Origin: Apteryx mantelli
Lineage: Eukaryota; Chordata; Aves; Apterygiformes; Apterygidae
DNA length: 64,000 bases
Assembly (NCBI RefSeq): GCF_036417845.1
Contig: NC_090016.1
Location: 583,451 to 647,450, forward strand
Direction: 5' to 3'
Positions within the stretch are counted from its first letter, which is position 1. Each line of letters opens with the position of its first letter. The notes under the pieces are model-generated. The model was not told the origin of the DNA. It saw only the letters and a program-made list of their open reading frames with translations, and did no database searches. Below, piece after piece: positions 7,101 to 63,281 of this stretch. Both the position numbers and the translations under genes were made by a program.

Positions 7101-10100
7101 GCCCAGGCATCTGGGAAGGGGCCCAGGCGTCCGGGAAGGGGCCCAGGCATCCGGGAAAGGGCCCAGGCATCCGGGAAAGGGCCCAGGCATCTGGGGGAGG
7201 GGCCCAGGCGTCTGGGGCAGGAAGGGGCCCAGGTGTTCGGGAAGGGGCCCAGGCGTCCGGGAAAAGGGCCCAGGCGTCCGGGGAAGGGATCCAGGCGTCC
7301 GGGAAAGGGGCCCAGGCGTCCGGGTGAGGGGCCCAGGCGTCCGGGAAGGGGCCCAGGCGTCCAGGAAGGGGCCCAGGTGTCCGGGTGAAGGGGCCCAGGC
7401 GTCCGGGAAGGGGCCCAGGCGTCCAGGAAAAGGGGCCCAGGTGTCCGGGTGAAGGGGCCCAGGCGTCCGGGAAGGGGCCCAGGCGTCCGGAAAAGGGGCC
7501 CAGGTGTCCAGGGAAGGGGGCCCAGGCGTCCGGGGAAGGGGCCCAGGCATCCGGGGTTGGTTCCCAGTCACCCAGGGAAGGGGCCCAGGTGTCCGGGTGA
7601 GGGGCCCAGGTGTCCAGGAAGGGGCCCAGGCATCCGGGAAAGGGGCCCAGGCGTTCGGGAAAGGGGCCCAGGCATCCAGGGAAAGGGCCCAGGTGTCCGG
7701 GGAAGGGGCCCAGGCGTCCGGGAAGGGACCCAAGTGTCCGGGAAAAGGGGCCCAGGCGTCCGGGTGAGGGGCCCAGGCGTCCGGGAAAAGGGGCCCAGGC
7801 GTCCGGGTGTGGACCCAGGCGTCCGGGCGCAGAGGGCGGGGCTCTGGCGCTGCTCGCCCGGGCCCTGGGCCCCGAGGTGGGAGGAGCCGCCGGGCTCTGC
7901 TGCTACCTGGGCACCGCCTTCGCCGCCGCCATGGCCGCCCTGGGCGCCGCCGAGACCCTGCTGGTGAGCGCCGCCCCTTTAAGGGCCCCCTCATCCCCCC
8001 CCCCTTCACGTGTCATCCCGTGTTCCTCCTCCCGCCATCTTGGGGGGGCGTCCCGGGGGTCCTTGTGGGGTTTTGGGGGTGTCCCATGTCCACCCGTGTC
8101 CACCCGTGTCCACCCATGTTCACCCATGTTGCTCTACGTGGGGTTGGGGGTGTCCCGTGTCCACCCATGTTCACCTATGTTCACCCGTGTTCACCCATGT
8201 TGCTCTACGTGGGGTTGGGGGTGTCCCGTGTCCACCCGTGTCCACCTATGTTCACCCGTGTTCACCCGTGTTGCTCTACATGGGGTTGGGGGTGTCCCAT
8301 GTCCACCCGTGTCCACCCGTGTCCACCCATGTTCACCCGTGTTGCTCTACGTGGGGTTGGGGGGCGTCCTGTGTCCACCCATGTTCACCTATGTTCACCC
8401 GTGTTCACCCGTGTTGCTCTACGTGGGGTTGGGGGTGTCCCGTGTCCACCCATGTTCACCTATGTTCACCCGTGTTCACCCGTGCTGCTCTACGTGGGGT
8501 CTTGTGGGGTGTCCCATGTCCACCTGTGTCCACCCGTGTTGTCCTACATGGTGTTGGGGTTGTCCTGTGTCCATCCGTGTCCATCCGTGTTCACCCGTGT
8601 TGTCCTACGTGGTGTCGCGGGGTGTCCCGTGTCCTCCCGCGTCCACCCGTGTCCATCCGTGTTCCTCTGCGTGGGGGTTGGGGTCCACCCGTGTTCACCT
8701 GTGTCGCCCTACACGGTGTTGGGGGCATCCCGTGTCCATCTGTGTCCACCCGTGTTGTTCTGTGTGGCCTTGGGGGTGTCCCATGTCCACCCGTGTCCAC
8801 TCATGCCCACCCGTGTTGGCTTCTGTGGTGTTGCGGGGCGTCCCGTGTCCACCCGTGTCCACCCATGTCCTCCCATGTCACCCTATGTGGTCCTGGGGGT
8901 GTCCTATGTCCACCCGTGTCCACTCGTGTCCACCCATGTCACCTTCTGTGGTGTTGTAGAGCATCCCGTGTCCACCCGTGTCCACCCGTGTTACCTTATG
9001 TGGGGCTGGGGGCGTCCTGTGTCCACCCGTGTCCATCCGTGTCGCTCTAGGCGGTGCTGGGGGTGTCCCGTGTCCATCCATGTCCACCCGTGTCACCCTA
9101 GGTGGTGCTGTGGGGCGTCCTGTGTCCACCCGTGTCCATCCATGTCCATCCGTGTCACCCTAGGTGGTGCTGGGGGTGTCCCGTGTCCATCAATGTCCAC
9201 CCGTGTCACCCTACGTGGTGTCGTGGGGCGTCCCGTGTCCACCCGTGTCCACCCGTGTCCACCCGTGTCCACCCGTGTCACCCTACGTGGTGTCATGGGG
9301 CGTCCCGTGTCCCCCTGTGTCCCCCCATGTCCACCCGTGTTGTCCTCCATGAGGTTGTGGGGCGTCCCGTGTCCCCCCCACCCGCACCATCCCACGCACA
9401 CGCCACCGCCCCGTGTCGGAGCACACGCCAAGGTGGCGTGTCCCCGCCGCGGCGCGGCGCCCGCCAGGTGTACGTGGCGCCGCAGGCAGCCGTGTTCGCG
9501 GGGCCGGGGGCACCGGCCCGCCTCAACAACGGGCGCCTCTACGGCTCGGCCTTCCTCGCCCTCCTCGTCCTCGCCGCCGCCCTGGCGCCCCGGCCCGCCC
9601 GCCGCCTGGCGCCCCTCGGCCTCGCCGCCCTCCTCCTCGGCCTCCTCGCCCTGCTCGCCGGCGCCGCCAAGTCCGCCGTCGCCCCGCCGGGCCTGCGGTG
9701 AGTCTCCCCCGCGCCGCCACACGCTAACACACGCCAGCACACGCCAGCACACGCCATCACACGCAAGGGTTTCCTCTCTCTTAGCGTGTTCTTGCTGCTT
9801 GAGTGGGTGTTGGTGGGCGTGGAGGCTCGTTGGGGACCAAAATATGCTGAAACACGCAATAACACGCAATAACACGCAAGCACATGCAAGGGTTTCCTCT
9901 CTCTTAGCGTGTTCTTGCTGCTTGAGTGGGTGTTATTGAGCACGGAGGCTCGTTGGGGACCAAAATATGCTAAAACACACAATAACACGCAATAACATGC
10001 AATAACACGCAAGCACACGCAAGGGTTTCCTCTCTCTTAGCGTGTTCTTGCTGCTTGAGTGGGTGTTGGTGGGCGTGGAGGCTCGTTGGGGACCAAAATA

Positions 10101-13100
10101 TGCTGAAACACGCAATAACACACAATGACACGCCAGCACACGCAAGGGTTTCCTCTCTCTTAGCGTGTTCTTGCTGCTCGAGTGGGTGTTGGTGGGCGTG
10201 GAGGCTCGTTGGGGACCAAAATACACTGAAACATGCAATAACATGCAATAACACGCCAGCACACGCAAGGGTTTCCTCTCTCTTAGCGTGTTCTTGCTGC
10301 TTGAGTGGGTGTTGGTGGGTGTGGAGGCTCGTTGGGGACCAAAATATGCTGAAACATGCAATAACACGCAATAACATGCAATAACACGCCAGCACACGCA
10401 AGGGTTTCCTCTCTCTTAGCGTGTTCTTGCTTCTTGAGTGGGTGTTATTGAGCACGGAGGCTCGTTGGGGACAAAAATACGCTGAAACACGCAATATCAC
10501 GCAATAACACGCCAGCACACGCAAGGGTTTCCTCTCTCTTAGCGTGTTCTTGCTGCTTGAGTGGGTGTTATTGAGCACGGAGGCTCGTTGGGGACAAAAA
10601 TACGCTGAAACACGCAATATCACGCAATAACACGCAAGCACACGCAAGGGTTTCCTCTCTCTTAGCGTGTTCTTGCTGCTTGAGTGGGTGTTATTGAGCA
10701 CGGAGGCTCGTTGGGGACAAAAATACGCTGAAACATGCAGTAACACGCAATGGCACGCAATAACACGCAAGCACACGCAAGGGTTTCCTCTCTCTTAGCG
10801 TGTTCTTGCTGCTTGAGTGGGTGTTGGTGGGTGTGGAGGCTCCTTTGGAACCAAAATATGCTGAAACATGCAATAACACGCAAGAACACGCAAGCACACG
10901 AGGGTTTTCTCTCTCTTAGCGTGTTTTTGCTGCTCGAGTGGGTGTTATTGAGCACGGAGGCTCGTTGGGGACCAAAATACGCTGAAACACGCAATATCAC
11001 GCAATAACACGCAAGCACATGCAAGGGTTTCCTCTCTCTTAGCGTGTTCTTGCTACTTGAGTGGGTGTTATTGAGCACGGAGACTCATTGGGGACCAAAA
11101 TATGCTGAAACACGCAATAACACGCAATGACATGCAATAACACGCAAGCACACGCAAGGGTTTCCTCTCTCTTAGCGTGTTCTTGCTGCTTGAGTGAGTG
11201 TTGGTGGGCGTGGAGGCTCGTTGGGGACCAAAATATGCTGAAACACGCAATAACACGCAATAACACGCAAGAACATGCAAGCACACGCAAGGGTTTCCTC
11301 TCTCTTAGCGTGTTCTTGCTGCTTGAGTGGGTGTTATTGAGCACGGAGACTCATTGGGGACCAAAATATGCTGAAACATGCAATAACACGCAATAACACG
11401 CAAGCACACGTATGCATTTTTTTCTCTTAGCATGTTTTTCCTGGGTAATTGGATGTTGGCGGCAGCGGAGCCTGATCGGGGCCCAAAACCCAGCCAAGAA
11501 ACACCCCAAAACACCCCAAATCCTGGAAGAACATGCTTTAACATGCAACAACATGCTCTAACATGCGTGTTGTTTTTTCCTCTCTCTTCCTTAGCGTGTT
11601 TTTCTGTGTTAACTGGATGTTGGCGGCAGCGGAGCCCAATCGGGGCCCAAAACCAGGCTGAAAAACACCCCAAAACACCCCGAATCCTAGAAGAACATGT
11701 TCTAACATGCAACAACACGCTCTAACACGCGTGTTGGTTTTTCTTCTCTCTTCCTTAGCGTGTTTTTCCATGTTAATTGGATGTTGGCGGCAGCGGAGCC
11801 CAATCGGGGCCCAAAACCAGGCTGAAAAACACCCGAAAACACCCCAAATCCCGGAAGAACCCGCTCTAACATGCAACAACATGCTCTAACACGCATGTTG
11901 GTTTTTCCTCTCTCTTCCTTAGCATGTTTTTCCAGGGAAATTGGATGTTGGCGGCAGCGGAGCCTGATCGGGGCCCAAAACCAGGCTGAAAAACACCCGA
12001 AAACACCCCAAATCCCAGAAGAACCCGCTCTAACACGCAACAACATGCTCTAACACGCGTGTTGGTTTTTCCTCTCTCTTCCTTAGCATGTTTTTCCAGG
12101 GAAATTGGATGTTGGCGGCAGCGGAGCCTGATCGGGGCCCAAAATCAGGCCGAAAAACACCCGAAAACACCCCAAATCCCAGAAGAACATGCTCTGACAC
12201 GCAACAACATGCTCTAACACGCGTGTTGGTTTTTCTTCTCTCTTCTTTAGCGTGTTTTTCCATGTTAATTGGATGTTGGCGGCAGCGGAGCCCAATCGGG
12301 GCCCAAAACCAGGCTGAAAAACACCCGAAAACACCCCAAATCCCGGAAGAACCCGCTCTAACATGCAACAACATGCTCTAACACGCGTGTTGGTTTTCCT
12401 TCTCTCTTCCTTAGCGTGTTTTTCCTGGTTAATTGGATGTTGGCGGCAGCGGAGCCCAATCGGGGCCCAAAACCAGGCTGAAAAACACCCCAAAACACCC
12501 CAAATCCCGGAAGAACCCGCTCTAACACGCAACAACATGCTCTAACACGCGTGTTGGTTTTTCCTCTCTCTTCCTTAGCATGTTTTTCCGTGTTAATTGG
12601 ATGTTGGCGGCAGCAGAGCCTGATCGGGGCCCAAAACCAGGCTGAAAAACACCCCAAAACACCCCAAATCCCGGAAGAACCTGCTCTAACACGCTCCGAC
12701 ACGCTCTAACACGCGTGTCCTTTTCCCCCCCCCGCCCTTAGCGTGTGCCTGCTGGGCAACCGGACGCTGGCGGCGGTGGAGGCCTGCGCCAAGACGGAGG
12801 GAGGCCCGGGCCTCCTGCGGGGCCTCTTCTGCCGGGGCCCCCGCTGCGACCCCTACTACAGCCGCAACAACGCCACGGCCCTGCCCGCCGTGCCCGGCCT
12901 GGCCAGCGGCGTCCTCGCCGGTGAGCACGCGTGTCCGTGGGGGGGGGGGCGGGGGGGGCAAGATGGCCGCCGGGGCGGGGCAAGATGGCTGCTGGGGCAG
13001 GGCAAGATGGCTACCAGGGTGGGGCAAGATGGCTGCCGGAGGCGGGTTGTTTCCGCCCCGCCTGTTATATGGGTTGGCGTATGTCAAGATGGCCGCCGGA

Positions 13101-16100
13101 GCGGGGCAAGATGGCTGCCGGGGGCGGGTTGTTTCCGCCCTGCCCGTTACGTGGGTTGGCGTGTGCCAAGATGGCCGCCGTGACGGGACGGTGACCCGCC
13201 TTGACGTACGCCAAGATGGCCGCCGCGGTGGGGGGGTTGACGGTGGCGCGCCAAGATGGCCGCCGCCCTCCCGCCCCCGCGTTGTGGCACGGCCCAAAAT
13301 GGCCGCCACGGGGGGGGGGTGGGCAGGGCAAGGGGACAGTGGGCAGGGCGGTGGGCGGGGCAGAGGGGCAGGTGGGCGGGGCCTCCCAGGCACGAGCAAG
13401 ATGGCCGACGCCCTCCCACATTGCATTGCGGTGCGGTGCAAAATGGCCGCCACAGGGGGGCGGTGGGTGGGGCGAGGGGAGCAGTGGGCAGGGCAAGGGG
13501 CATTGGGCGGGGCAAGGGGGCAGTGGGCAGGGTGATGGGCAGGGCAAGGGGGCAGTGGGCGGAGTGAGGGGCAGTGGGTGGGGCAAGGGGCAGTGGGCAG
13601 GGCAAAGGGGGTGGTGGGCAGGCCAAGGGGCAGTGGGCAGAACAAGGGGAGCAGTGGGCAGGGCAGTGGGCAGGGCAAGGGGCAGTGGGTGGAGCAAGGT
13701 GGAAGTGGGCAGGACAAGGGGGGCAGTGGGCAGGGCGGTGGGCAGGGCAAGGGGGTGGTGGGCGGAGCAAGGGGAGCAGCGAGCAGGGCAAGGGGGGCAG
13801 TAGGCAGGGCGGTGGGCAGGACAAGGGGGCGGTGGGCAGGGCCAGGGGAGCAGTGGGCGGAACAAGGGGAACAGTGGGCAGGGCAGTGGACAGGGCAAGG
13901 CGCAGTGGGCAGGGCAAGGGGATGGTGGGCGGGGCAAGGGGGGCAGTGGGCAGGGCGGTGGGCAGGGCAAGGGGGTGGTGGGCGGAGCAAGGGGAGCAGC
14001 GAGCAGGGCAAGGGGGGCAGTAGGCAGGGTGGTGGGCGGGGCAAGGAGCAAGGGGCGGGGCAAGGGGGCAGTGGGCAGGGTGGTGGGCGGGGCAAGGAGC
14101 AAGGGGCGGGGCAAGGGGCAGTGGGCAGGGCAAGGGGGCAGTGGGCAGGGTGGCAGGCAGCACAAGGGGCAGTGGGCAGGGCGGTGGGCGGGGCCAGGGG
14201 GGAGGGCGAGGTGGGCGGGGCCTCCCGGGGCGCCAACAAGATGGCCGCCGCAGAGAACCTGTGGCCGCGCTACGGGGCGCCGGGCGAGCGGCTGGAGAAG
14301 GCGGCGGCTCCCTCGGTCCCCGCCCCCGGCGGCCTCGGCTCCGCCTACGTCCGGGGCCAGGGCGGCTCCTTCGGCCTCGTCCTCGGCCTCGTCTTCCCCC
14401 TGGCGCCCGGTGAGTCGCGGCCCCGCCCTCGCGGGAAGGGGCCCAGGCGTCCGGGGAAAGGGCCCAGGTGTCCGGGAAAAGGGGCCCAGGCGTCCGGGAA
14501 AGGGGCCCAGGTGTCCGGGAAAAGGGGCCCAGGAATCCAGGAAAAGGGGCCCAGGCGTCCGGGAAGGGGCCCAGGTGTCCGGGAAAGGGCCCAGGCATCC
14601 GGGAAAAGGGGCCCAGGCATCCGGGAAGGGGCCCAGGCATCCGGGAAAAGGGGCCCAGGCATCCGGGGAAGGGGCCCAGGCATCCGGGAAGGGGCCCAGG
14701 CGTCCGGGAAAAGGGGCCCAGGCATCCGGGGAAGGGGCCCAGGTGTCCGGGAAAGGGCCCAGGCATCCGGGAAAAGGGGCCCAGGCATCCGGGGAAGGGG
14801 CCCAGGTGTCCGGGAAAGGGCCCAGGCATCCGGGAAAAGGGGCCCAGGCATCCGGGGAAGGGGCCCAGGCGTCCGGGAAGGTGCCCAGGCATCCAGGAAA
14901 GGGGCCCAGGCATCTGGGGAAGGGGCCCAGGTGTCCGGGTGAAGGGGCCCAGGCATCCGGGAAAGGGGCCCAGGCGTCCGGGAAAAGGGGCCCAGGTGTC
15001 CGGGTGAAGGGGCCCAGGCGTCCGGGAAAAGGGGACCAGGAGTCCCAGAAGGGACCCAGGTGTCCGGGGAAAGGGCCCAGGCGTCCGGGGAAGGGGCCCA
15101 GGCGTCCGGGAAGGGGCCCAGGCCTCCGGGAAAAGGGGCCCAGGCGTCCGGGAAGGGGCCCAGGCGTCCGGGAAGGGGCCCAGGCATCCGGGAAGGGATC
15201 CAGGCGTCCGGGAAAAGGGGCCCAGGTGTCCGGGAGAAGGGATCCAGGCGTCCGGGGAAGGGGCCCAGGCGTCCGGGAGCTGAGGGGCCCCGGCGTCCGG
15301 GCAGGGCTCATGGCCGCCGTCGCTCCGGCTCCTCTCGCCAACCCTCCTCGCTCCGTCCCGGCCGGAACCTTCGGCGCCGTCGCCGTCGCCGCCCTCATCT
15401 GCATCCGGCCCTAAAATTGGCCAGTTTCACCCCAAAATGGGGGCAGGGTGGGGGGAGGGGCGGCAGCCCAGAAACGGGGCAGGAACCTTCCAAAGGGGGG
15501 AACGGGGGGGCCCCAAAAACGGCACTTTTGAGCCCAAAAATCAGGGTCGGAGTCCTAAAAAATGGAAATTTCATCCCCAAAATCGCCAGATGCCCCCAAA
15601 ATGGGCGTTTTTGCCCCAAAAATGCAGGGAGGGACCCCAAAAATGGGAGAATGGGACCCCCAAAAATGTGGGGTGTCGTTTTGGGTGGGTTTGGGGTGTT
15701 TTGGGCATTCTCGTTTTTGGGGGGATTCGTGGGTCCCTGTTTTGGGGGGGTGGGTCCGTTTTGGGGCTATTTCAGGGGATTTTGGGGTCTTCATTCTGGG
15801 GGGGGGTGAGGGAGTTTTGGGGCCCCGTTTTGGGGCAGTTTAGAGGGTTTTGGGGAGGTCTCATTTTGGGGTGGTTTGTGGGGTTTTGGGGGGTCCCGTT
15901 TTGGGTCGATTTGGGGGGTTTTTGGTTGTCCCAGGTGGGAGTCTCATTTTGGGGCGATTTCAGGGGATTTTGGGACTCTCATTTCAGTCCAGTTTGGGAG
16001 GTTTTGGATGTCCGTTTTGGGGCTATTTCGGGGGATTTTGGGGCTCCCATTTTGGGTCGATTTGGGGGGTTTTGGGTGTCCATTTTGGGTCATTTCCAGG

Positions 16101-40347: not shown

Positions 40348-42757
<2,410 letters not shown>

Positions 42758-43292
42758 CTTAGCGCCGCCTCCTTCTCCTTCCCGGCACCGCCCGCGCGCC
42801 CGCGAACCGCCCCCGCGGCGGACGGCGCTCGGCCAATGGCGAGAGCGGGCAGCGGCGCAGCGGGCCAATGAGCGCCAGGCAGCGCGGCGCTCGGTCCCGC
42901 CCACCGCGCCCCGCTCGGCGCGCATGCGCTCAGCGCCGCTTCCCCCTCTTGCGCGGGCGTATTTGCATACGCGCTTCTGATTGGTCCCTGAGCGCCGCGA
43001 CCCCCACGTGGCGGGGCGGGGGTTGGGAGGGGAGGGAGGGTGCGGCGCCGGACGCCTGGGCCCCTTAAAGGGCCAGTGCCCCCGCCCCTCGGTCGGGACT
43101 CCTGGGCCCCTCCCCGCGACCCTTGGAGTTTGTCCCGGACTCCTGGGAACCGCGTTCAGAGCTCGACCCGGACGCCTGGGCCCTTCTCTCCGGACGCCAG
43201 GGGCCCCTTCCCCGGACACCTGGTCCCTTCCCGGACATCTGGGTCCCTTTGCCGGACGCCTGGGCCCCTTCCCGGACGCCTGGGCCCGCGGC
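42758..43292. promoter_or_regulatory. Bidirectional CpG-island promoter of EMC4 (-) and CIDEB (+)
   Basis: Head-to-head interval of about 535 bases. Contains CCAAT boxes at about 42834 (GGCCAATGGC) and 42864 (GGGCCAATGAG), an inverted one at 42979 (GATTGGTCC), GC boxes, and CCACGTGGCG near 43005. The right third (43045-43290) is a reverse-oriented M1 minisatellite. Confidence 0.65.
43045..43290 (-). repeat. Family M1 minisatellite upstream of the CIDEB start
   Basis: About nine degenerate reverse-oriented units (CGGACGCCTGGGCCCCTT and GGACTCCTGGG variants), ending at the putative CIDEB start codon. The repeat may be part of the promoter or 5' UTR. Confidence 0.85.
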
Positions 43293-46200: not shown

Positions 46201-49200
46201 CCTGAGACCTCTCAATTGCCCCCAGGAGCCATTAATTGCCCCCGGGAGCCCTCACATGCCCACGGGAGGCATTAATTGCCCCCCCTGGACCTCTAATTGC
46301 CCCTGGGAGCCATTAATTGCCCCCCCCGGGCCTCTAATTGCCCCTGGGACCTATTAATTGCCCCCCCGGACATCTACTTATCTCCCCGGGACCCCTCAAT
46401 TGCCCCCCCGGGACCCCTCAATTGCCCCCCCAGGACCCCTCAATTGCCCCCCCGGGAGCCATTAATTGCCCCCCCGGGACCCTTCAATTGCCCCTGAGAC
46501 CCTTCAGTTGTCCCCCTGGGCCTCTACTTGCCCCTGGGAGCCATTAATTGCCCCTGGGACCCCTCAATTGCCCCCGGGAGCCATTAATTGCCCCCAGAAC
46601 CCCTCAATTGCCCCTGAGAGCCCTCAATTGCCCCCCCCGGGCCTCTAATTGCCCCTGGGACCCCTCAATTGCCCCCCCTGGGCCTCTAATTGACCTTGGG
46701 AGCCATTAATTGCTCTCCCTGGGCCTCTAATTGCCCCTGGGACCTTTCAGTTGCCCCTGGGAGCCATTAATTGCCTCCGGGAGCCCTCAATTGCCCCCCC
46801 CCCAGGGCCTCTAATTGCCCCGGGACCCTTCAATTGCCCCCCCAGGCCTCTAATTGCCCCCGGGAACCATTAATTGCCCCCCCCGGGGCCTCTAATTGCC
46901 CCCGGGACCCCTCAATTGCCCCTGGGAGCCATTAATTGCCCCCCATGGCCTCTACTTGCCCCCGCGGGAGGCATTAATTGCCCCCAGGACTCCTCAGTTG
47001 CCCCCCTGGGAGCCATTAATTGCCCCCGGGAGCCCTGGCTTGCCCCCGCGGGCGGCATTAATTGCCCCCCGGGGGGGCGGCAGGCGGGGGAGGCGCTGGG
47101 GCTGGGGGCGCCGGTGAGGCTGGTGCTGGCGGAGGACGGGGCGGCGCTGGAGGGCGACGGAGCCCTGGGCGCCCTGGAGCCGCACGCGACCCTCGTGGCG
47201 CTGGCGCCGGGGCAGCGCTGGGAGCCCCCCCGGGTGAGCGACGCCCCCAATACCCCCCCCAATACCCCCAAATACTCCCCGAATACCCCCAAATACCCCT
47301 TGAGCGCCCCAAAATACCCCCAAATAGCCCCTGGGAGTCCCCAAATACCCCCCGGGAGCCCCTAAATACCCCCAAATACCCCCTGAGACCCCCCAATACC
47401 CCCTGGGCGCCCTGGAGCCGCACGCGACCCTCGTGGCGCTGGCGCCGGGGCAGCGCTGGGAGCCCCCCCGGGTGAGCGACGCCCCCAATCCCCCCCGAAT
47501 ACTCCCTAAATACCCCCAAATACCCCTTGAGCGCCCCAAAATACCCCCAAATACCCCCTGAGACTCCCCAAATACCCCCCGGGAGCCCCAAAATACCCCC
47601 AAATACCCCCTGAGAGCCCCTAAATACCCCCAAATACTCCTTGAGAGCCCCAAAATACCCCCAAATACTCCTTGAGACTCCCCAAATACCCCCCGGGAGC
47701 CCCAAAATACCCCCAAATACCCCTTGAGAGCCCCTAAATACCCCCAAATACCCCCCAGGAGTCCCTAAATACCCCCAAATACTCCCTGGGAGCCCCTAAA
47801 TACCCCCAAATACTCCTTGAGACTCCCCAAATACCCCCCGGGAGCCCCAAAATACCCCCAAATACCCCTTGAGAGCCCCTAAATACCCCCAAATACCCCC
47901 TGAGACCCCCCAAATACCCCCTGGGCGCCCTGGAGCCGCACGCGACCCTCGTGGCGCTGGCGCCGGGGCAGCGCTGGGAGCCCCCCCGGGTGAGCGACGC
48001 CCCCAATACCCCCCCGAATACCCCCGAATACTCCCCGAATACCCCCAAATACCCCTTGAGAGCCCCTAAATACCCCCAAATACCCCCCAGGAGTCCCTAA
48101 ATACCCCCAAATACTCCTTGAGAGCCCCCAAATACCCCCCGGGAGCCCCTAAATACCCCCAAATACCCCCTGAGAGCCCCTAAATACCCCCAAATACCCC
48201 CCGGGAGCCCCTAAATACCCCCAAATACCCCCTGAGAGCCCCCAAATACCCCCAAATACCCCCCAGGAGTCCCTAAATACCCCCAAATACTCCTTGAGAG
48301 CCCCCAAATACCCCCCGGGAGCCCCTAAATACCCCCAAATACCCCCTGAGACTCCCCAAATACCCCCTGGGCGCCCTGGAGCCGCACGCGACCCTCGTGG
48401 CGCTGGCGCCGGGGCAGCGCTGGGAGCCCCCCCGGGTGAGCGACGCCCCCAATACCCCCCCGAATACCCCCGAATACTCCCCGAATACCCCCAAATACCC
48501 CTTGAGCGCCCCAAATACTCCCCGGGAGCCCCTAAATACCCCCAAACACCCCCTGAGACCCCCCAAATACCCCCCGGGAGCCCCCAAATACCCTCTGGGA
48601 GCCCCCCTGGGTGAGCCCCAATACCCCCCCCAAAAAATACCCCCTAAATACTCCCTCCCAAATACCCTCTGGGAGCCCCAAAATACCCCCAAATACCCCC
48701 GAGACTCCCCAAATACCCCCTGGGCGCCCTGGAGCCGCACGCGACCCTCGTGGCGCTGGCACCGGGGCAGCGCTGGGAGCCCCCCCGGGTGAGCGACGCC
48801 CCCAATACCCCCCCGAATACCCCCGAATACTCCCCCAATACCCCCGAATACCCCTTGAGCGCCCCCAAATACCCCCAAATACTCCTTGAGACTCCCCAAA
48901 TACCCCCCGGGAGCCCCTAAATACCCCCAAATACCCCTTGAGAGCCCCTAAATACCCCCAAATACCCCCTGAGAGCCCCTAAATACCCCCAAATACCCCC
49001 CGGGAGCCCCTAAATACCCCCAAATACCCCCTGAGACCCCCCAAATACCCCCTGGGCGCCCTGGAGCCGCACGCGACCCTCGTGGCGCTGGCGCCGGGGC
49101 AGCGCTGGGAGCCCCCCCGGGTGAGCGACGCCCCAATACCCCCCCGAATACCCCCGAATACTCCCCGAATACCCCCAAATACCCCTTGAGCGCCCCCAAA

Positions 49201-51784: not shown

Positions 51785-51789
51785 AGCCT

Positions 51790-52706
51790 GAAGAGCCATT
51801 GAACGCTAGTCCGGTGGCTTGGAGGACTCATTGCTGGGCCAAAATGGTGGTGGGGAGGGGGCTAAGTGTATTATGGGAAAGGGGAGGAGCCAAGGAAGAC
51901 AGGCTCCTCCCCCCAGGGGTGAAAACGGGACAAACGTAAAGAAACAGAGCAATTTATACAAAAATATCTATGGGGGCGGGTGGGAGCAGACAAGACTTGG
52001 GGAAGAGGAACCAGAGTGTCGCCTATCACCACCCCCCCCACTGAGTTTACCCAACAACTCTATGGTTCTTACATTAAGAAGGGCTTTGAGGGCTATCCTC
52101 TCTGGCGTTCGGTCCTCCAGCAGCTCTAAGGCACAGGTTCTTCTGGCCAGCAGTCCTCCAAGGTCTCTGTGGTAGTCCTCCAGAGCATAGGAGAGCCACA
52201 CAGCCAGGGTGACTTTCTACTCCACAGTCCTCCAGCAGCTCCGTGGTGCTTCCCCAACAGCCACTAAGATTAGCTGCTCTGGGTGACTCTCTGCTCCTCC
52301 ATCCCCAGTCTCTATGGTTCTCTGAGTCAGTCGTCTAAACAGGCCCCCAGTGACATTCTGTTGTCCTGTGGCAAGTCTCTATGGTGCCCTGGGGGGTCAG
52401 TCCTCCAACATGGGAGCAGAGATGACTTTCCAGCGCTCAATCTTTGGGCTCTATGGTTTCCCAGAGGGTTGGTCCTCCAGCAGGTGGTTGAAGCGTATGG
52501 GCCACTCTATCGTTTCATTCGCCATCTCTATGGTGGTGGCATCAGTGCTCCAACAGGCGACCATGAAGCCTCCGGCACTGCTCCAGCGCTCGCTCGCTCG
52601 TTCTCTATGGCCCGTGGTCCTCCAGGAGGGCGCCAAGGTGGGCCGGGGTGCCTCTCCGCCCCCCGCGCCGGCTGTCTCCGCTGCTCCGGGGTGGGGGTGG
52701 GAGGAG
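51790..52706 (-). other. NOP9: NOP9 3' UTR region with imperfect repeats
   Basis: The least GC-rich kilobase of the window. On the plus strand it carries repeated TCCTCCAGCAG and CTCTATGGTT(C/T) motifs every 60-80 bases between 52050 and 52640. A minus-strand TATAAA (plus TTTATA at 51953-51958) is a possible variant poly(A) signal. I see no convincing coding exon; the open frames here have no family resemblance. Confidence 0.5.
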
Positions 52707-52864
52707 TCAGTCCTCCAAGATGTCCGCCAGCAGGGCCCGGCGGCGGGCAGGGGCGGCCTGGAGCCGCTGCCAGTCGCGGGGGCGGCGGGCGAAGAGGTCG
52801 AGGGCCAAGGCCCAGGCGACGCCGCGGCCGTGGGGGTCGCGCCGCAGCGCTTCCCGCTGGGCGG
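52707..52864 (-). CDS. NOP9: NOP9 terminal coding exon
   Basis: AQREALRRDPHGRGVAWALA, LDLFARRPRDWQRLQAAPAR, RRALLADILED, TGA at 52709-52707. The first codon is split (G+CC). The intron to the previous exon (52865-52951) contains two reverse-oriented M1 units. Confidence 0.9.
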
Positions 52865-55800
52865 CTGCGGGAGGCAACGCGGTGTCAGTCGCTCCCGGAC
52901 GCCTGGGCCCCTCCCGGACGCCTGGGCCCCTCCCCCGTCCCCGCGACTCACCCAGCTCGGCGGCGATGGCGGCGCGGGCCGGGCCGGAAGAAACCGCCCA
53001 GACGGCGTCCAGCACCCGGCTGCCGTTGCGGTGACAGGCCAGCGACAGGAAGTGACCCTGTAAAGGGGGGTGGGGGGGCGGGGTTAATGCAGGAAGTGAT
53101 GTCACATGCTGGAAGGCGGGGCCGAGGCGAGCAGTGACATCACCCAGGTGGGGGCAGGCGCCAAAATCGCACTGTTCCACCAGTCTTCAGGGTGGGGGTG
53201 GGGGGGTCTCGAAACCGCCCCAAACAGGGGGATTTGGCCCCAAAACTGCCCCCGACGGGGGGAATTCAGCCCCAAAACCATCCGAAATGGAGAATTTGGC
53301 CCCAAAACCGCCCCAAACAGGGGGATTTGGCCCCAAAACCATCCAAAATGGAGGATTCGGCCCCGAAACCTCCCCAGAGGGATTCAGCCCTGAAACCATC
53401 CGAAACGGAGGAATTGGCCCCAAAACCGCCCCAAACAGAGGAATTCAGCCCCCAAAACCATCCAAAATGGAGGCTTTGACCCCAAAACCGCCCCAAACGG
53501 GGGGGGGGGGGGGGATCTGGCTCTGCAACCGCCCCCCGACGGGGGGATTCGGCCCCGAAACCGTCTGAAATGGAGAATTCAGTCCTGAAACTGCCGCAAA
53601 CTGAGAAATTCAGCCCCAAAACCATCCAAAGTGGAGGAACTTGGCCCTGAAACTGTCCAAAATGGGGGGATCCGGCCCCGAAACTGCCCCAAATAGAGGA
53701 ATTCAGCCCCAAAACCATCCGAAATGGAGGATTTGGCCCCGAAACCGCCCCAAATGAAGGGATTCAGCCCCAAAAACCATCCGAAATGGAGGATTTGGCC
53801 CCAAAAATGCCCTAAATGGGGATTCGGCCCTGAAACCGCCCCAAATGGAGAATTTGGCTCCAAAACTGCCCCAGACGGGGGAATCTGGCCCTGAAAATGC
53901 CCGAAACGGAGGGATTCAGCCCCAAAACCATCCGAAACGCAGGATTCGGCCCCAAAACTGCCCCAAATGGAAGAATTCAGCCCCAAAACCATCTGAAACG
54001 GAGGATTTGGCCCCAAAACCGCCCCAAACTGCGGGGATCCCGCCCCGAAACCGCCCCAAAATGGAGAAATTCAGCCCTGAAACCATCCGAAACGGGGGGG
54101 GGGGGGATCCGGCCCGGAAACCACCCCAAATAGAGGAATTCGGCCCTGAAACCATCCAAAATGGGGGGATCCGGCCCCGAAACCGCCCCAAACGGAGGAA
54201 TTCAGCCCCAAAACTGTCCAAAATGGAGGAAATCGGCCCCGAAACCGTCCAAAATGGAGGATTCGGCCCCCAAACCACCCCAAACGGAGGAATTCAGCCC
54301 CAAAACCATCCGAAATGGAGGAAACCAGCCCCGAAAACATCCAAAACGGAGGATTCGGCACCGAAACCGTCCAAAATGGAGGAAATCAGCACCAAAACCC
54401 TCCAAAATGGAGAAATTCATCCCGAAACTGCCCCGGACGGGGGGGATTCAGCCCCAAACCCGTCCAAAACGGAGGAATTCGGCCCCAAACCCGTCCAAAA
54501 TGGGGGGATCCAGCTCCAAAACCATCTGAAACGGAAGATTCAGCCCCAAAACTGCCCCAAATAGAGGAATTCAGACCCCAAACCGTCTGAAATGGAGGAA
54601 ATCGGCCCCGAAACTGCCCCAAATGGAGAAAATCAGCCCCGAAACCATCCAAAATGGAGGAAATCGGCCCTGAAACCATCCAAAATGGGGGGATCTGGCT
54701 CCAAAACCATCTGAAACGAAGGAATTCAGCCCCAAAACCGCCCCAAACGGAGGAATTCAGCCCCGAAACCATCCAAAACGGAGGAATTCGGCCCCGAAAC
54801 CGCCCTAAATGGAGGAATTCAGCCCCAAAACCGCCCAAAATGGAGGAATTCAGCCCCGAAACCGCCCAAAATGGAGGAAATTGGCCCCGAAACCATCCAA
54901 AACGGAGGAAATCGGCCCCGAAACCGCCCCAAAACGGAGGAAATCGGCCCCGAAACCGCCCCAAACGGAAAAATTTGTCCCCGAAACTGCCCCAAACGGA
55001 GGGATTTGGCCCCGAAACCGCCCCAAACGGAGGAATCCGGCCCCGAAACCGCCCCAAACGGAGGGATTTGTCCCCGAAACCGCCCCAACCCGGGGGGATC
55101 CCGGCCCCGGAAGCGGCCCTCACCCGGAGCTTGCGCAGCAGGCGCCGGCGGCGCCGGGGGGCCACGGCGGGCGAGGCGAGCACGGCGTCCCACACGCGGC
55201 TGCCGGGGCCGCTGCGCGCCAGGGCGGCCGTCCGAAACGGGGGCGATTCAGCCCCCAAACCGTCCAAAATGGAGGATTCGGCCCCGAAACCGCCCCAAAT
55301 GGGGGGAATTCGGCCCCGAAACCGTCCACAACGGAGGAATTCAGCTCCCAAACCATCCAAAATGGAGGTTTTGGCCCCCGAAACCGCGCCAAAAGGAGAA
55401 ATTCAGCCACAAAACCGTCCAAAATGGAGGAATCCGCCCTGAAACCGCCCCAAATGGAGGGATTCGACCCCGAAACCATCCGAAATGGAGGAAATCGGCC
55501 CCGAAACTGTCCAAAATGGAGGAAATCGGCCCCGAAACCGCCCAAAATGGAGGAAATCGGCCCCGAAACCGCCCAAAATGGAGGATTTGGCACCGAAACC
55601 GTCCAAAATGGAGGAAATCGGCCCCGAAACCGTCCAAAATGGAGGATTCAGCCCTGAAACCATCCAAAACGGAGGAAATCGGCCCCGAAACCGTCCAAAA
55701 CGGAGGAAATTGGCCCCGAAACCGTCCAAAACGGAGGAAATTGGCCCCGAAACCGCCCAAAATGGAGGAAATCAGCCCCGAAACCGTCCGAAATGGAGGA

Positions 55801-58800
55801 ATTCAAACCCCAAACTGTCCAAAAGGGAGGAATCCGGCCCCGAAACCGCCCCAAACGGAGGGATTTGTCCCCGAAACCGCCCCAACCCGGGGGGATCCCG
55901 GCCCCGGAAGCGGCCCTCACCCGGAGCTTGCGCAGCAGGCGCCGGCGGCGCCGGGGGGCCACGGCGGGCGAGGCGAGCACGGCGTCCCACACGCGGCTGC
56001 CGGGGCCGCTGCGCGCCAGGGCGGCCGTCCGAAACGGGGGCGATTCAGCCCCCAAACCGTCCCAAATGGAGGATTCGGCCCCGAAACCGCCCCAAATGGG
56101 GGGAATTCGGCCCCGAAACCGTCCAAAACGGAGGAATTCAGCTCCCAAACCATCCAAAATGGAGGTTTTGGCCCCCGAAACCGCGCCAAAAGGAGAAATT
56201 CAGCCACAAAACCGTCCAAAATGGAGGAATTCAGCCCCGAAACCGTCCAAAATGGAGGAATCCGGCCCTGAAACCGTCCAAAATGGAGGAATCCGGCCCT
56301 GAAACCGTCCAAAATAGAGGAATCCGGCCCCGAAACCGTCCAAAATGGAGGAATCCGGCCCCGAAACCGTCCAAAATGGAGGATTTGTTCCCGAAACCGC
56401 CCAAAATGGAGGGATTCGGCCCCGAAATCGCCCGAAACGGAGGGATTCGGCCCCGAAATCGCCCGAAACGGAGGATTTGTTCCCGAAACCGCCCAAAATG
56501 GAGGGATTCGGCCCCGAAATCGCCCGAAACGGAGGGATTCGGCCCCGAAATCGCCCGAAACGGAGGGATTCGGCCCCGAAATCGCCCGAAACGGAGGGAT
56601 TCGGCCCCGAAACCGCCCAAAACGGAGGGATTCGGCCCCGAAACCGCCCAAAACGGAGGGATTCGGCCCCGAAACCGTCCAAAACGGAGGGATTCAGCCC
56701 CGAAACCGTCCAAAATGGAGGAAATCGGCACCGAAAACCGCCCCAAATGGAGGAAATCGGCACCGAAACCATCCAAAATGGAGGAAATCGGCACCGAAAC
56801 CATCCAAAATGGAGGAATTCAGCCCCGAAACCGTCCAAAATGGAGGAAATCGGCCCTAAAAACGTCCAAAGTGTAGGAAATAGGCCCCAAAACCGTCCGA
56901 AATGGAGGATTTGTCCCCGAAAACCGTCCAAAATGGAGGGATCCGGCCCCGAAACCATCCAAAACGGAGGGATTTGTCCCCGAAACCGCCCCAAACGGAG
57001 GGATTTGTCCCCGAAACCGCCCCGAACGGAGGGATTTGTCCCCGAAACCGCCCCAAACGGAGGAATTCGGCCCCCAAACCGTCCAAAATGGAGGAATCCA
57101 GCCCCGAAACCGTCCAAAACGGAGGAAATCGGCCCCGAAACCGCCCCAAACGGAGGAATCCGGCCCCAAAACCGCCCCAAGCCGGGGGGATCCCGGCCCC
57201 GGAAGCGGCCCTCACCCGGAGCTTGCGCAGCAGGCGCCGGCGGCGCCGGGGGGCCACGGCGGGCGAGGCGAGCACGGCGTCCCACACGCGGCTGCCGGGG
57301 CCGCTGCGCGCCAGGGCGGCCGTCCGAAACGGGGGCGATTCAGCCCCCAAACCGTCCAAAATGGAGGATTCGGCCCCGAAACCGCCCCAAATGGGGGGAG
57401 TTCGGCCCCGAAACCGTCCACAACGGAGGAATTCAGCTCCCAAACCATCCAAAATGGAGGTTTTGGCCCCCGGAACCGCGCCAAAAGGAGAAATTCAGCC
57501 ACAAAACCGTCCAAAATGGAGGAATCCGGCCCCGAAACCGTCCAAAATGGAGGAAATCAGCCCCGAAACCGTCCAAAATGGAGGAAATCAGCCCGAAACC
57601 GTCCAAAATGGAGGAAATCAGCCCCGAAACCGTCCAAAATGGAGGAATTTGGCCCCGAAACTGTCCAAAATGGAGGAATTCAGCCCCGAAACCATCCAAA
57701 ACAGAGGAATTCGGCCCCAAAAGTGTCCAAAATGGAGGAATTCAGCCCCGAAACCGTCCAAAATGGAGGAATCCGGCCCCGAAACCGTCCAAAACGGAGG
57801 AAATCGGCACCAAAACCCTCCAAAATGGAGAAATTCAGCCCCGAAACTGCCCCGAACGGGGGGGATTCAGCCCCAAAACCGTCCAAAATGGAGGAAATCG
57901 GCCCTAAAACCATCCAAAACGGAGGAAATCGGCCCCGAAACCGCCCCAAACGGAGAGATTTGTCCCGAAACCGCCCCAACCCGGGGGGATCCCGGCCCCG
58001 GAAGCGGCCCTCACCCGGAGCTTGCGCAGCAGGCGCCGGCGGCGCCGGGGGGCCACGGCGGGCGAGGCGAGCACGGCGTCCCACACGCGGCTGCCGGGGC
58101 CGCTGCGCGCCAGGGCGGCCGTCCGAAACGGGGGCGATTCAGCCCCCAAACCGTCCAAAATGGAGGATTTCGGCCCCGAAACCGCCCCAAATGGGGGGAA
58201 TTCGGCCCCGAAACCGTCCACAACGGAGGAATTCAGCTCCCAAACCATCCAAAATGGAGGTTTTGGCCCCCGGAACCGCGCCAAAAGGAGAAATTCAGCC
58301 ACAAAACCGCCCAAAATGGAGGAATCCGGCCCTGAAACCGCCCCAAACGGAGGAATTCGGCCCCCAAACCGTCCAAAATGGAGGAATCCGGCCCTGAAAC
58401 CATCCAAAATGGAGGAAATCGGCACCGAAACCATCCAAAATGGAGGAATTCAGCCCCGAAACCGTCCAAAATGGAGGAAATCGGCCCTAAAAACGTCCAA
58501 AGTGTAGGAAATAGGCCCCAAAACCGTCCGAAATGGAGGATTTGTCCCCGAAACCGCCCAAAATGGAGGGATTCGGCCCTGAAACCGTCCAAAATGGAGG
58601 AAATCAGCCCCGAAACCGTCCAAAACGGAGGAATTCGGCCCCCAAACCGTCCAAAACGGAGGAATTCGGCCCCCAAACCGCCCCAAACGGAGGGATTTGT
58701 CCCCGAAACCGCCCCAACCCGGGGGGATCCCGGCCCCGGAAGCGGCCCTCACCCGGAGCTTGCGCAGCAGGCGCCGGCGGCGCCGGGGGGCCACGGCGGG

Positions 58801-61800
58801 CGAGGCGAGCACGGCGTCCCACACGCGGCTGCCGGGGCCGCTGCGCGCCAGGGCGGCCGTCCGAAACGGGGGCGATTCAGCCCCCAAACCGTCCAAAACG
58901 GAGGATTCGGCCCCGAAACCGCCCCAAATGGGGGGAATTCGGCCCCGAAACCGTCCACAACGGAGGAATTCAGCTCCCAAACCATCCAAAATGGAGGTTT
59001 TGGCCCCCGAAACCGCGCCAAAAGGAGAAATTCAGCCACAAAACCGTCCAAAATGGAGGAATCCGCCCCGAAACCGCCCCAAATGGAGGGATTCGGCCCC
59101 GAAACCGTCCAAAACGGAGGAAACCGGCCCCGAAACTGCCCCGGACGGGGGGGATTCGGCCCCGAAACCGTCCGAAACGGAGGGATTCGGCCCCGAAACC
59201 GTCCAAAACGGAGGAAATCGGCACCAAAACCCTCCAAAATGGAGAAATTCAGCCCCGAAACTGCCCCGAACGGGGGGGATTCAGCCCCAAAACCATCCAA
59301 AATGGAGGAAATTGGCCCTAAAACCATCCAAAATGGAGGAATTTGGCCCTAAAACCATCCAAAATGGAGGAATTCGGCCCCGAAACCGCCCCAAACGGAG
59401 GAATCCGGCCCTGAAACCGCCCCAAACGGAGGAATCCGGCCCCCAAACCGTCCAAAATGGAGGAATCCGGCCCCGAAACCGTCCAAAATGGAGGAATCCG
59501 GCCCCGAAACCGTCCAAAACGGAGGAATCCGGCCCGAAACCGTCCAAAACGGAGGAATCCGGCCCCGAAACCGTCCAAAACGGAGGAATCCGGCCCCGAA
59601 ACCGTCCAAAACGGAGGAATCCGGCCCCGAAACCGTCCAAAATGGAGGATTTAGCACCGAAACCGTCCAAAACGGAGGGATTCGGCCCCGAAACCGTCCC
59701 AAAATGGAGGAATTCGGCCCCAAAACCGTCCAAAATGGAGGAATTCGGCCCCCAAACCGCCCAAAACGGAGGAAACCGGCCCCGAAACCGCCCCAAACGG
59801 AGGGATTTGTCCCCGAAACCGCCCCAACCCGGGGGGATCCCGGCCCCGGAAGCGGCCCTCACCCGGAGCTTGCGCAGCAGGCGCCGGCGGCGCCGGGGGG
59901 CCACGGCGGGCGAGGCGAGCACGGCGTCCCACACGCGGCTGCCGGGGCCGCTGCGCGCCAGGGCGGGCCGTCCGAAACGGGGGCGATTCAGCCCCCAAAC
60001 CGTCCAAAATGGAGGATTCGGCCCCGAAACCGCCCCAAATGGGGGGAGTTCGGCCCCGAAACCGTCCACAACGGAGGAATTCAGCTCCCAAACCATCCAA
60101 AATGGAGGTTTTGGCCCCCGGAACCGCGCCAAAAGGAGAAATTCAGCCACAAAACCGGCCAAAATGGAGGAATCCGGCCCTGAAACCGCCCAAAATGGAG
60201 GAAATCGGCCCCGAAACCGCCCCAAACGGAGGAATTTGGCCCCGAAACCGCCCCAAACGGAGGAAATCGGCCCCCAAACCGTCCAAAATGGAGGAATCCG
60301 GCCCTGAAACCGCCCAAAATGGAGGAAATCGGCCCCGAAACCGCCCAAACTGGAGGAAATCGGCCCCGAAACCGCCCCAAATGGGGGGAATTCGGCCCCG
60401 AAACCGTCCACAACGGAGGAATTCAGCTCCCAAACCATCCAAAATGGAGGTTTTGGCCCCCGAAACCGCGCCAAAAGGAGAAATTCAGCCACAAAACCGT
60501 CCAAAATGGAGGAATCCGGCCCTGAAACCGCCCCAAACGGAGGGATTCGGCCCCGAAACCGCCCCAAATGGAGGAAACCGACCCCGAAACCATCCGAAAT
60601 GGAGGAATTCGGCCCCCAAACTGTCCAAAATGGAGGATTTGTCCCCGAAAACCGTCCAAAATGGAGGAATCTGGCCCCGAAACTATCCAAAATGGAGGAA
60701 ATCGGCCCCGAAACCGCCCAAAATGGAGGAATCCGGCCCTGAAACCGCCCCAAATGGAGGGATTCGGCCCCGAAACCGCCCCAAATGGAGGAAATCGGCC
60801 CCAAACCGTCCAAAATGGAGGAAATGTCCCCGAAACCGTCCAAAATGGAGGAATTTGGCCCCGAAACCGTCCAAAATGGAGGAAATCGGCCCCGAAAGTG
60901 TCCAAAATGGAGGAATTCGGCCCCGAAACCATCCAAAACAGAGGAATTCGGCCCCAAAAGTGTCCAAAATGGAGGAATTCAGCCCCGAAACCGTCCAAAA
61001 TGGAGGAATCTGGCCCCAAAACCGTCCAAAATTGAGGAATCTGGCCCCAAAACCGTCCAAAATTGAGGAATCTGGCCCCAAAACCGTCCAAAACGGAGGA
61101 ACGGCCCCGAAACTGCCCCGGACGGGGGGGATTCAGCCCCAAAACCATCCAAAATAGAGGAAATCGGCCCCGAAACCATCCAAAATGGAGGAAATCGGCC
61201 CCGAAACCATCCAAAATGGAGGGATTCGGCCCTGAAACCATCCAAAATGGAGGAAATCAGCCCCGAAACCCTCCAAAACGGAGGAAATCGGCCCCGAAAC
61301 CGCCCCAAACGGAGGGATTTGGCCCCGAAACCGCCCCAACCCGGGGGGATCCCGGCCCCGGAAGCGGCCCTCACCCGGAGCTTGCGCAGCAGGCGCCGGC
61401 GGCGCCGGGGGGCCACGGCGGGCGAGGCGAGCACGGCGTCCCACACGCGGCTGCCGGGGCCGCTGCGCGCCAGGGCGGCCGTCCGAAACGGGGGCGATTC
61501 AGCCCCCAAACCGTCCAAAATGGAGGATTCGGCCCCGAAACCGCCCCAAATGGGGGGAATTCGGCCCCGAAACCGTCCACAACGGAGGAATTCAGCTCCC
61601 AAACCGCCCAAAATGGAGGTTTTGGCCCCCGGAACCGCGCCAAAAGGAGAAATTCAGCCACAAAACCGGCCAAAATGGAGGAATCCGGCCCCCAAACCGT
61701 CCAAAATGGAGGAATCCGGCCCCCAAACCGTCCAAAATGAGGAATCCGGCCCCAAACCGTCCAAAAATGGAGGAATCCGGCCCCGAACCGTCCAAAATGA

Positions 61801-63281
61801 GGAATCCGGCCCCGAAACCGTCCAAAATGGAGGAATCCGGCCCCGAAACCGTCCAAAATGGAGGAATCCGGCCCCGAAACCGTCCAAAATGGAGGAATCC
61901 GGCCCCGAAACCGTCTAAAATGGAGGAAATCGGCCCCGAAACCCTCCAAAATGGAGGAAATCGGCCCCGAAACCCTCCAAAATGGAGGAAATCGGCCCGA
62001 AACCCTCCAAAATGGAGGAATTCGGCCCCGAAACCGCCCCAAATGGGGGGAGTTCGGCCCCGAAACCGTCCACAACGGAGGAATTCAGCTCCCAAACCAT
62101 CCAAAATGGAGGTTTTGGCCCCCGAAACCGCGCCAAAAGGAGAAATTCAGCCCCAAAACCGTCCAAAATGGAGGAAATCGGCCCCAAAACTGCCCCGGAC
62201 AGGGGGATTCAGCCCCGAAACCGTCCAAAATGGAGGAATCCGGCCCCGAAACCGTCCAAAATGGAGGAATTCAGCCCCGAAACCGTCCAAAATGGAGGAA
62301 ATCGGCCCTAAAAACGTCCAAAGTGTAGGAAATAGGCCCCAAAACCGTCCGAAATGGAGGATTTGTCCCCGAAACCGCCCAAAATGGAGGGATTCGGCCC
62401 CGAAACCGTCCAAAATGGAGGAAATCAGCCCCGAAACCGTCCAAAACGGAGGAATTCGGCCCTGAAACCGCCCCAAACGGAGGGATTCGGCCCCGAAACC
62501 GCCCCAACCCGGGGGGATCCCGGCCCCGGAAGCGGCCCTCACCCGGAGCTTGCGCAGCAGGCGCCGGCGGCGCCGGGGGGCCACGGCGGGCGAGGCGAGC
62601 ACGGCGTCCCACACGCGGCTGCCGGGGCCGCTGCGCGCCAGGGCGGCCGTCCGAAACGGGGGCGATTCAGCCCCCAAACCGTCCAAAATGGAGGATCCGG
62701 CCCCGAAACCGCCCCAAATGGGGGGAATTCGGCCCCGAAACCGTCCACAACGGAGGAATTCAGCTCCCAAACCATCCAAAATGGAGGTTTTGGCCCCCGA
62801 AACCGCGCCAAAAGGAGAAATTCAGCCACAAAACCGTCCAAAATGGAGGAATCCGGCCCTGAAACCGCCCCAAAGGGAGGAATCCGGCCCGAAACCGTCC
62901 AAAATGGAGGAAATCAGCCCCGAAACCGTCCGAAATGGAGGAATTCAAACCCCAAACTGTCCAAAACGGAGGAATCCGGCCCCGAAACCGCCCCAAACGG
63001 AGGGATTCGGCCCCGAAACCGCCCCAACCCGGGGGGATCCCGGCCCCGGAAGCGGCCCTCACCCGGAGCTTGCGCAGCAGGCGCCGGCGGCGCCGGGGGG
63101 CCACGGCGGGCGAGGCGAGCACGGCGTCCCACACGCGGCTGCCGGGGCCGCTGCGCGCCAGGGCGGCCAGGGCCGGGGGGGGCAACGCTTGCAGCCCCCC
63201 CAAAACGGCCGCCGGCGCCTCGAAGTGCAGCAGGTGCTGCAGCAGCAGGGAGCCCTGCAGGGTCACCGCGTCCAGCGAGGC
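52707..63281 (-). CDS. NOP9: NOP9 nucleolar protein (Pumilio-like), 3' part
   Basis: NOP9 is a Pumilio-repeat RNA-binding protein needed for early 40S (ITS1/18S) processing in the nucleolus. Exons in transcript order (minus strand): 63063-63281, 52952-53057, 52707-52864; upstream exons lie beyond 64000. Encoded segments: ASLDAVTLQGSLLLQHLLHF, then LARSGPGSRVWDAVLASPAV and RRRRRLLRKLR; GHFLSLACHRNGSRVLDAVW and ARAAIAAELG; AQREALRRDPHGRGVAWALA, LDLFARRPRDWQRLQ and RRALLADILED before TGA. They align with the last Pumilio repeats of human NOP9 ([51 protein letters not shown]). All junction phases agree. The 10-kb intron between the first two exons holds eight partial copies of the upstream exon. 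Confidence 0.87.
52952..53057 (-). CDS. NOP9: NOP9 penultimate coding exon
   Basis: GHFLSLACHRNGSRVLDAVW, AVSSGPARAAIAAEL and a split glycine. NGSRVLDAV is the RNA-contact helix of a Pumilio repeat. Acceptor CTTTACAG, donor CTGG|GTGAGT (minus strand). Confidence 0.9.
55124..55229 (-). pseudogene. NOP9 exon fragment copy 1
   Basis: 106 bases identical or almost so to the 3' end of the exon at 63063-63281 (AALARSGPGSRVWDAVLASP onwards), with donor CGG|GTGAGG and flanking intron. No acceptor on its 5' side; sequence passes directly into repeat. Confidence 0.9.
55921..56026 (-). pseudogene. NOP9 exon fragment copy 2
   Basis: Same 106-base fragment and donor, 797 bases from copy 1. Confidence 0.9.
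57216..57321 (-). pseudogene. NOP9 exon fragment copy 3
   Basis: Same fragment and donor, 1295 bases from copy 2; the upstream flank reads CCCCAAGCCGGGGGG (one change). Confidence 0.9.
58015..58120 (-). pseudogene. NOP9 exon fragment copy 4
   Basis: Same fragment and donor, 799 bases from copy 3, nearly the same spacing as copies 1-2. Confidence 0.9.
58753..58858 (-). pseudogene. NOP9 exon fragment copy 5
   Basis: Same fragment and donor, 738 bases from copy 4. Confidence 0.9.
59873..59979 (-). pseudogene. NOP9 exon fragment copy 6
   Basis: Same fragment with one extra G at its truncated end (GGGCGGGCC), 1120 bases from copy 5. Confidence 0.9.
61375..61480 (-). pseudogene. NOP9 exon fragment copy 7
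   Basis: Same fragment and donor, 1502 bases from copy 6; an extra leader without exon fragment lies between them. Confidence 0.9.
62543..62648 (-). pseudogene. NOP9 exon fragment copy 8
   Basis: Same fragment and donor, 1168 bases from copy 7 and 520 bases from the intact exon. Confidence 0.9.
63063..63281 (-). CDS. NOP9: NOP9 antepenultimate coding exon (intact parent)
   Basis: 73 codons: ASLDAVTLQGSLLLQHLLHF, EAPAAVLGGLQALPPPALAA, LARSGPGSRVWDAVLASPAV, APRRRRRLLRKLR. Acceptor CGCCAG and donor CGG|GTGAGG on the minus strand, phase 0 at both ends. It is the only member of the series with the 5' half and an acceptor. Confidence 0.9.

Follow-up and report, generated by a model that had tools for sequence, protein, structure and literature searches.

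Exon-edge copies in intronic tandem arrays of NOP9, CIDEB and a K-Cl cotransporter gene in a kiwi: probable cases of exon stuttering

Introduction

Minisatellites, or variable number tandem repeats, and higher-order repeats consist of units, some tens to hundreds of bases long, that are repeated in tandem and homogenised by non-allelic exchange. In the 64-kb stretch of the Apteryx mantelli genome analysed here (contig NC_090016.1, positions 583,451 to 647,450; hereafter the window), introns of NOP9, CIDEB and a K-Cl cotransporter gene hold arrays that differ from these in that the repeat unit contains single-copy coding sequence from the neighbouring exon. An exon edge and its splice site were fused to intronic repeat at a single position within the exon and multiplied in the intron next to it. 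We put at roughly 0.72 the probability that the three arrays represent exon stuttering, on an avian chromosome dense in repeats, and were produced by capture and then non-allelic exchange.

Exon stuttering, or sequence stuttering, was named by Hron et al. (Hron et al. 2026, Genome Biol Evol, PMC12954441). According to the main text of that article, chicken has 236 stuttered introns in 115 genes, 190 of the 236 on dot chromosomes. More than 90% of the sources lie within one base of an exon border, donor or acceptor sites are copied, and the number of copies ranges from 1 to 44. Replication stress or non-crossover conversion was suggested as the mechanism, and local repeat expansions were reported in other birds. 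The screen was run with BLASTn-short, with a match of at least 20 bp and a bit score of at least 42.1 as threshold.

As in the cases of that main text, the lateral part of a coding exon and its splice site recur in the kiwi window as imperfect tandem copies, in direct orientation, in the adjacent intron of a GC-rich, repeat-dense avian chromosome. The exon itself is intact, and all three source exons have an open reading frame and show similarity to known proteins. The source lies within one base of the exon border in three of three cases (the cotransporter piece starts at exon base 1), and the copy numbers of 5, 8 and 21 fall within the published range. An initial annotation of the window had reported three exon-edge arrays with the intact exon at one end, on both strands and with both splice-site types. 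This was borne out, with 21 copies of a cotransporter acceptor edge (+ strand), 5 of a CIDEB donor edge (+ strand) and 8 of a NOP9 donor edge (- strand). Its remark that no named description existed does not hold in view of Hron et al. The phenomenon is already described and named; as far as the compared parts of that article go, new here are three further genes, in a kiwi window. The genes are different ones, NOP9, CIDEB and SLC12A being absent from the main text of PMC12954441, and the cotransporter case is too diverged for the published threshold, which NOP9 and CIDEB reach. Likewise, the compared content of the article has no identity gradient, tracer argument or check of decoy partner sites like those presented below. 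This form of genome instability, only recently named, gains three genes.

Donor-edge copies in NOP9 and CIDEB

The NOP9 copies lie on the same strand in the intron that follows their source exon. They were located by alignment to the exon, the exon itself by tblastn and Pfam, and the minisatellite by repeat analysis.

63063..63281, - strand: NOP9 exon, its last 106 bases being the source
53212..63027, - strand: 31-bp minisatellite that fills the NOP9 intron and contains the eight copies
62500..62648, - strand: NOP9 donor-edge copy 1
61332..61480, - strand: NOP9 donor-edge copy 2
59820..59966, - strand: NOP9 donor-edge copy 3, with one extra C at the junction
58710..58858, - strand: NOP9 donor-edge copy 4
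57972..58120, - strand: NOP9 donor-edge copy 5
57173..57321, - strand: NOP9 donor-edge copy 6, with one mismatch, in the intron part
55878..56026, - strand: NOP9 donor-edge copy 7
55081..55229, - strand: NOP9 donor-edge copy 8

The captured unit of all eight copies comprises 106 exon bases and at least 43 bases of the 10-kb intron. Seven of the eight alignments are at 100%, and copy 6 carries a single mismatch. In the exon part, the extra C at the junction of copy 3 is the one difference in 848 bases. The breakpoint lies 113 bp into the exon, where DNA of the 31-bp repeat is joined at one point common to the eight copies (one with the extra C). BLASTn-short returned eight matches, the best at 210 bits, from exon base 114 or 116 to base 219 of 219. 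The copies are 520 to 1512 bp apart, and all eight spacings, that from the exon to the first copy included, are 21-25 modulo 31. The array around them looks like a reshuffled pool: 70 of its 129 31-mers, a count that includes the monomers next to the copies, are identical to at least one other, compared with 11.4 on average and 23 at most in 200 column shuffles, and 72% of the positions outside the copies fall within exact repeats of at least 31 bases.

In CIDEB, the source exon (located by tblastn and Pfam) encodes part of the CIDE-N domain, and its copies were again placed by alignment to the exon.

47084..47233, + strand: CIDEB exon, its last 71 bases being the source
47401..47496, + strand: CIDEB donor-edge copy 1 (71 exon bases plus intron)
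47919..48046, + strand: CIDEB donor-edge copy 2
48365..48492, + strand: CIDEB donor-edge copy 3
48718..48845, + strand: CIDEB donor-edge copy 4
49050..49176, + strand: CIDEB donor-edge copy 5

The five copies are 97-99% identical to the source across 96-128 bases, with 1 difference in 355 bases of exon part. The breakpoint, 79 bp into the exon, is a junction common to all five. BLASTn-short gave five matches (best 141 bits) to exon bases 80-150 of 150. A further array at 50819-51430 was considered as a CIDEB case and rejected, the preceding exon having no match there.

The NOP9 and CIDEB exon pieces are multiplied only at their own exon and intron, as expected from the local process that the initial annotation had proposed. 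This was seen in searches of the 1.5-Gb assembly, which score the best candidates only and skip very common words. The NOP9 query gave nine strong matches, namely the exon and its eight copies, and among the matches listed all 51 lie in its own exon and intron (C40, 638,532-646,618). The CIDEB query gave eight matches, six of them strong (the exon and its five copies). The others are a partial match in the same intron and one of 45 bases on C117, which covers only the intron side of the query (83-127).

Acceptor-edge copies in the cotransporter gene

The third source is an exon of the K-Cl cotransporter gene, located by tblastn and a Protein Data Bank (PDB) match. Two adjoining arrays precede it.

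12742..12920, + strand: K-Cl cotransporter exon, source of the acceptor edge
9749..11410, + strand: 123/133-bp array with 13 diverged acceptor-edge copies, starting at 9785-11309
11426..12718, + strand: 164-bp array with 8 diverged acceptor-edge copies, starting at 11431-12579, running into the exon

Of the 21 copies, 13 follow each other at a period of 121-133 bp and 8 at 164 bp, and the last starts 163 bp ahead of the true exon start. Over the first 48 exon bases, 13 copies match at 28-30, five at 24-25 and three at fewer than 24. The best AG site outside this intron reaches 27, with a mean of 14.0 (5,885 AG sites in all, both strands), and individually the five copies at 24-25 and the three below 24 are within chance. 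When the exon was shuffled 20,000 times, the match of the 164-bp consensus (27) was never reached and that of the other array (24) was reached 12 times. The differences are mostly transitions, with 10 of 14 (164-bp consensus) and 12 of 19 (other array) in the first 40 bases, and 13 of 21 and 15 of 24 in the first 48. Upstream of the acceptor, the true site and the last three or so copies, which were the ones tested, match at 57-61 of 76 bases. The two arrays are alike past the exon part as well, as judged by eye, and a single old capture is therefore the likely source of both.

The cotransporter exon has no match at the published BLASTn threshold in its adjoining intron, and the published screen would thus miss these diverged copies. 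In the genome search, the exon itself gave one match.

Chance expectation

Across the window, 46 exon edges in 23 modelled introns were each compared with 60 dinucleotide shuffles. Four edges were outliers: the CIDEB donor (z 22.6), the NOP9 donor (z 22.2), the NOP9 acceptor (z 6.2) and the cotransporter acceptor (z 4.7). The match of the NOP9 acceptor edge (score 19) was rejected as a capture, being homology between two Pumilio repeats, so three genuine edges stand out among the 46. Stuttered introns make up 3 of the 23 modelled (2 of 23 at the published threshold), which is not far above the 3.4% of dot-chromosome introns given in the main text of Hron et al.; the binomial probability against 3.4% is about 0.18 for at least two and 0.04 for at least three.

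Decoy splice sites

The tens of decoy splice sites foreseen by the initial annotation are present, as the exon-edge copies number 34 in all. They were scored with simple splice-site matrices that are not calibrated for birds. All 21 cotransporter decoy acceptors score 7.6-14.0, compared with 7.3 for the real acceptor, and the decoy donors score the same as the real ones in NOP9 (8 of 8, at 9.2) and CIDEB (5 of 5). Sites as good are rarer on the opposite strand of the same introns (4 versus 23 cotransporter acceptors, 1 versus 8 NOP9 donors, 0 versus 7 CIDEB donors). An intron in which 21 acceptor copies outscore the real one in a simple matrix is a natural test of the fidelity of splicing to the true exon.

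Each copy is half an exon with one splice site, and exon definition, which needs a partner site, should help the cell to skip it. According to the matrix scores, such shielding by an absent partner is supported for NOP9, where the best acceptor upstream of the decoys scores 0.8 versus 11.0 for the real one. For the cotransporter the scores appear mixed, and for CIDEB they do not support it.

The copies could also be functional, for instance as a regulated alternative-splicing or decoy system under selection. Strong splice sites kept in 21 of 21 cotransporter copies despite their divergence, and the acceptor-like sites upstream of the CIDEB decoys, are in line with this. Array homogenisation, however, probably reduces the 21 copies to about two lineages, and such introns are highly variable in length among chickens, as stated in the main text of PMC12954441. 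A function of this kind is very improbable.

Origin of the arrays

One junction is common to all eight copies in NOP9 and to all five in CIDEB, which argues for one capture in each gene. The first join would have been made by template switching or by end-joining at short homology (2 bp in NOP9 and about 5 bp in CIDEB, read by eye). Non-allelic exchange, in register with the repeat around it, would then have copied the resulting chimeric block of a few hundred bases. The flanking repeats, which meet many slightly different partners, would be scrambled in the process, whereas the exon piece, which can pair only with identical copies of itself, would stay as it was.

The copies resemble each other most in the exon piece, and within about 50-200 bases of it their identity has dropped to the array background. 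In NOP9, the mean is 0.991 for the exon part, 0.965-0.968 for the 200 bases upstream and 0.945 at 106-200 bases downstream. Farther out it is 0.81-0.83 (0.69 at -500 to -400), compared with 0.79 for random array pairs in the best of 31 registers. In CIDEB, the exon part is at 0.995, the adjoining sequence at 0.925-0.931 and that farther away at 0.56-0.76. Such a gradient is in keeping with a single capture and with later non-allelic exchange that far outpaces point mutation.

The initial annotation had favoured replication slippage or unequal exchange initiated at the repeat/exon boundary. Some form of exchange is indeed favoured. Initiation at the boundary is contradicted by the breakpoints, which lie well inside the exon in both NOP9 and CIDEB. 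Recent plain unequal exchange would leave whole inter-copy intervals no less alike than the exon pieces, and the identity peak on the exon piece therefore speaks against it. The broader explanation that simple slippage or unequal crossing-over from the boundary duplicated whole intervals in tandem agrees with the tandem direct layout and with the regular 164-bp cotransporter array, which runs straight into its exon, and it would still fit if fast scrambling came afterwards. Nevertheless, it is unlikely given the position of the two junctions, the drop of the NOP9 flanks beyond about 200 bases to 0.81-0.83 against about 0.99 for the exon pieces, and the uneven NOP9 spacing.

That uneven spacing, the flanks specific to each copy and the occurrence of three unlike cases also argue against an assembly artefact, in which a collapsed repeat was expanded or over-polished. 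The window lies at the end of a 647-kb contig, and consensus errors could give near-perfect copies in a divergent repeat. For chicken PHF8, a gene of the same type, the general repeat structure was checked in raw nanopore data according to the main text of PMC12954441. An artefact is quite improbable.

Alternatively, ongoing gene conversion from the intact exon might keep the copies identical, in which case they may be old. The identity peak does coincide with the exon-derived part. Yet the 200 bases upstream of the NOP9 junction, which are absent from the true exon, are almost as alike as the exon part, and in the cotransporter gene the copies have diverged from their exon. Conversion from the exon is distinctly unlikely.

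Under capture followed by non-allelic exchange, the exon pieces should mutate as single-copy DNA and could date each capture, and the surrounding repeats would record exchange. The exon pieces differ at 2 of 1,203 exon-derived bases (one being the junction indel), against about 17-19% in the neighbouring NOP9 repeats. Taken as single-copy tracers, they tentatively suggest that exchange alters the intronic repeats at some 100 times the rate of point mutation or more, and that a block of a few hundred bases was copied in 31-bp register, not spread by whole-interval duplication.

Several points weigh against capture and exchange as the origin of all three arrays. Whole-interval duplication with fast scrambling would yield the same identity gradient as short-tract copying, and identity kept by exchange among the exon pieces is indistinguishable from youth. 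The closest cotransporter copies share 30 of 48 bases with their exon, and this case leans partly on register and upstream match. As to partner sites, donors of up to 6.4 occur within 300 bases downstream of the cotransporter decoy acceptors; this value is below that of the exon's own donor (9.1) and above those of two other modelled donors of the gene (6.1 and 6.2). Upstream of all five CIDEB decoys lie sites that score higher (-0.8 to 4.7) than the real acceptor as modelled (-1.5), which means that this edge is misplaced or the matrix unsuitable. The exon-stuttering reading does not rest on partner-site shielding. Finally, every result is drawn from one genome assembly and from sequence alone.

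Genes of the window

Exons were located via tblastn with human proteins as queries. The exon model is partial, with some exons missing and several edges guessed.

4001-38428 (about 4.0-38.4 kb), + strand: K-Cl cotransporter gene (tblastn; PDB and NCBIfam matches)
about 43.5-51.7 kb, + strand: CIDEB gene (tblastn; Pfam)
52.7 kb to at least 63.3 kb, - strand: NOP9 gene (tblastn; Pfam)

The names CIDEB and NOP9 used in the initial annotation were confirmed by Pfam, with CIDE-N at 9e-13 for two joined exons and PUF_NOP9 at 2.4e-27 for three. Its third name, SLC12A6, is likely rather than certain: the top PDB match is SLC12A6 (603 bits), and SLC12A4 follows closely (587 bits). Lying beside CIDEB and NOP9 and being nearly equally close to both, the cotransporter may be a further paralogue. 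Two cotransporter exons were searched; they matched in NCBIfam and PDB but reached significance with no Pfam family.

Other repeats of the region

Tandem repeats make up about 80% of the window, and its GC content is 0.49-0.74 per 2 kb. A 20-21 bp minisatellite with the core CCCGGACGCCTGGGCCC is present in 103 exact copies, with none in 100 shuffles. Its sites in the window, in both orientations, are:

694-1330, 4562-5210, 6995-7827, 14432-15306 and 22131-24320
31520-31592, 40467-41139, 42352-42500, 43167-43287 and 52894-52929

It also occurs elsewhere on the same contig (stretches L007, L008, L009 and L011), and one and two exact copies were found on two other contigs (L016 and L017). Occurrence at many sites and on other contigs indicates a dispersed repeat, not one of purely local origin. 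The core sequence had no match in the open-licence literature searched.

A rule by which array periods would be multiples of about 10.3 bp is not claimed, although its signal in the window was strong (0 of 2,000 jitters, 19 families). When each family contributed a single top lag, the value was attained by 326 of 5,000 jitters. The signal was not replicated in unrelated arrays sharing fewer than 10% of 10-mers with the window (4, 7 and 10 families), where 995, 990 and 956 of 1,000 jitters attained the value at 10.3. Two arbitrary 10-kb control stretches on larger contigs, L013 (C3:10.0 Mb) and L015 (C20:3.0 Mb), consist almost entirely of tandem array, with lags in multiples of 36 and 31.

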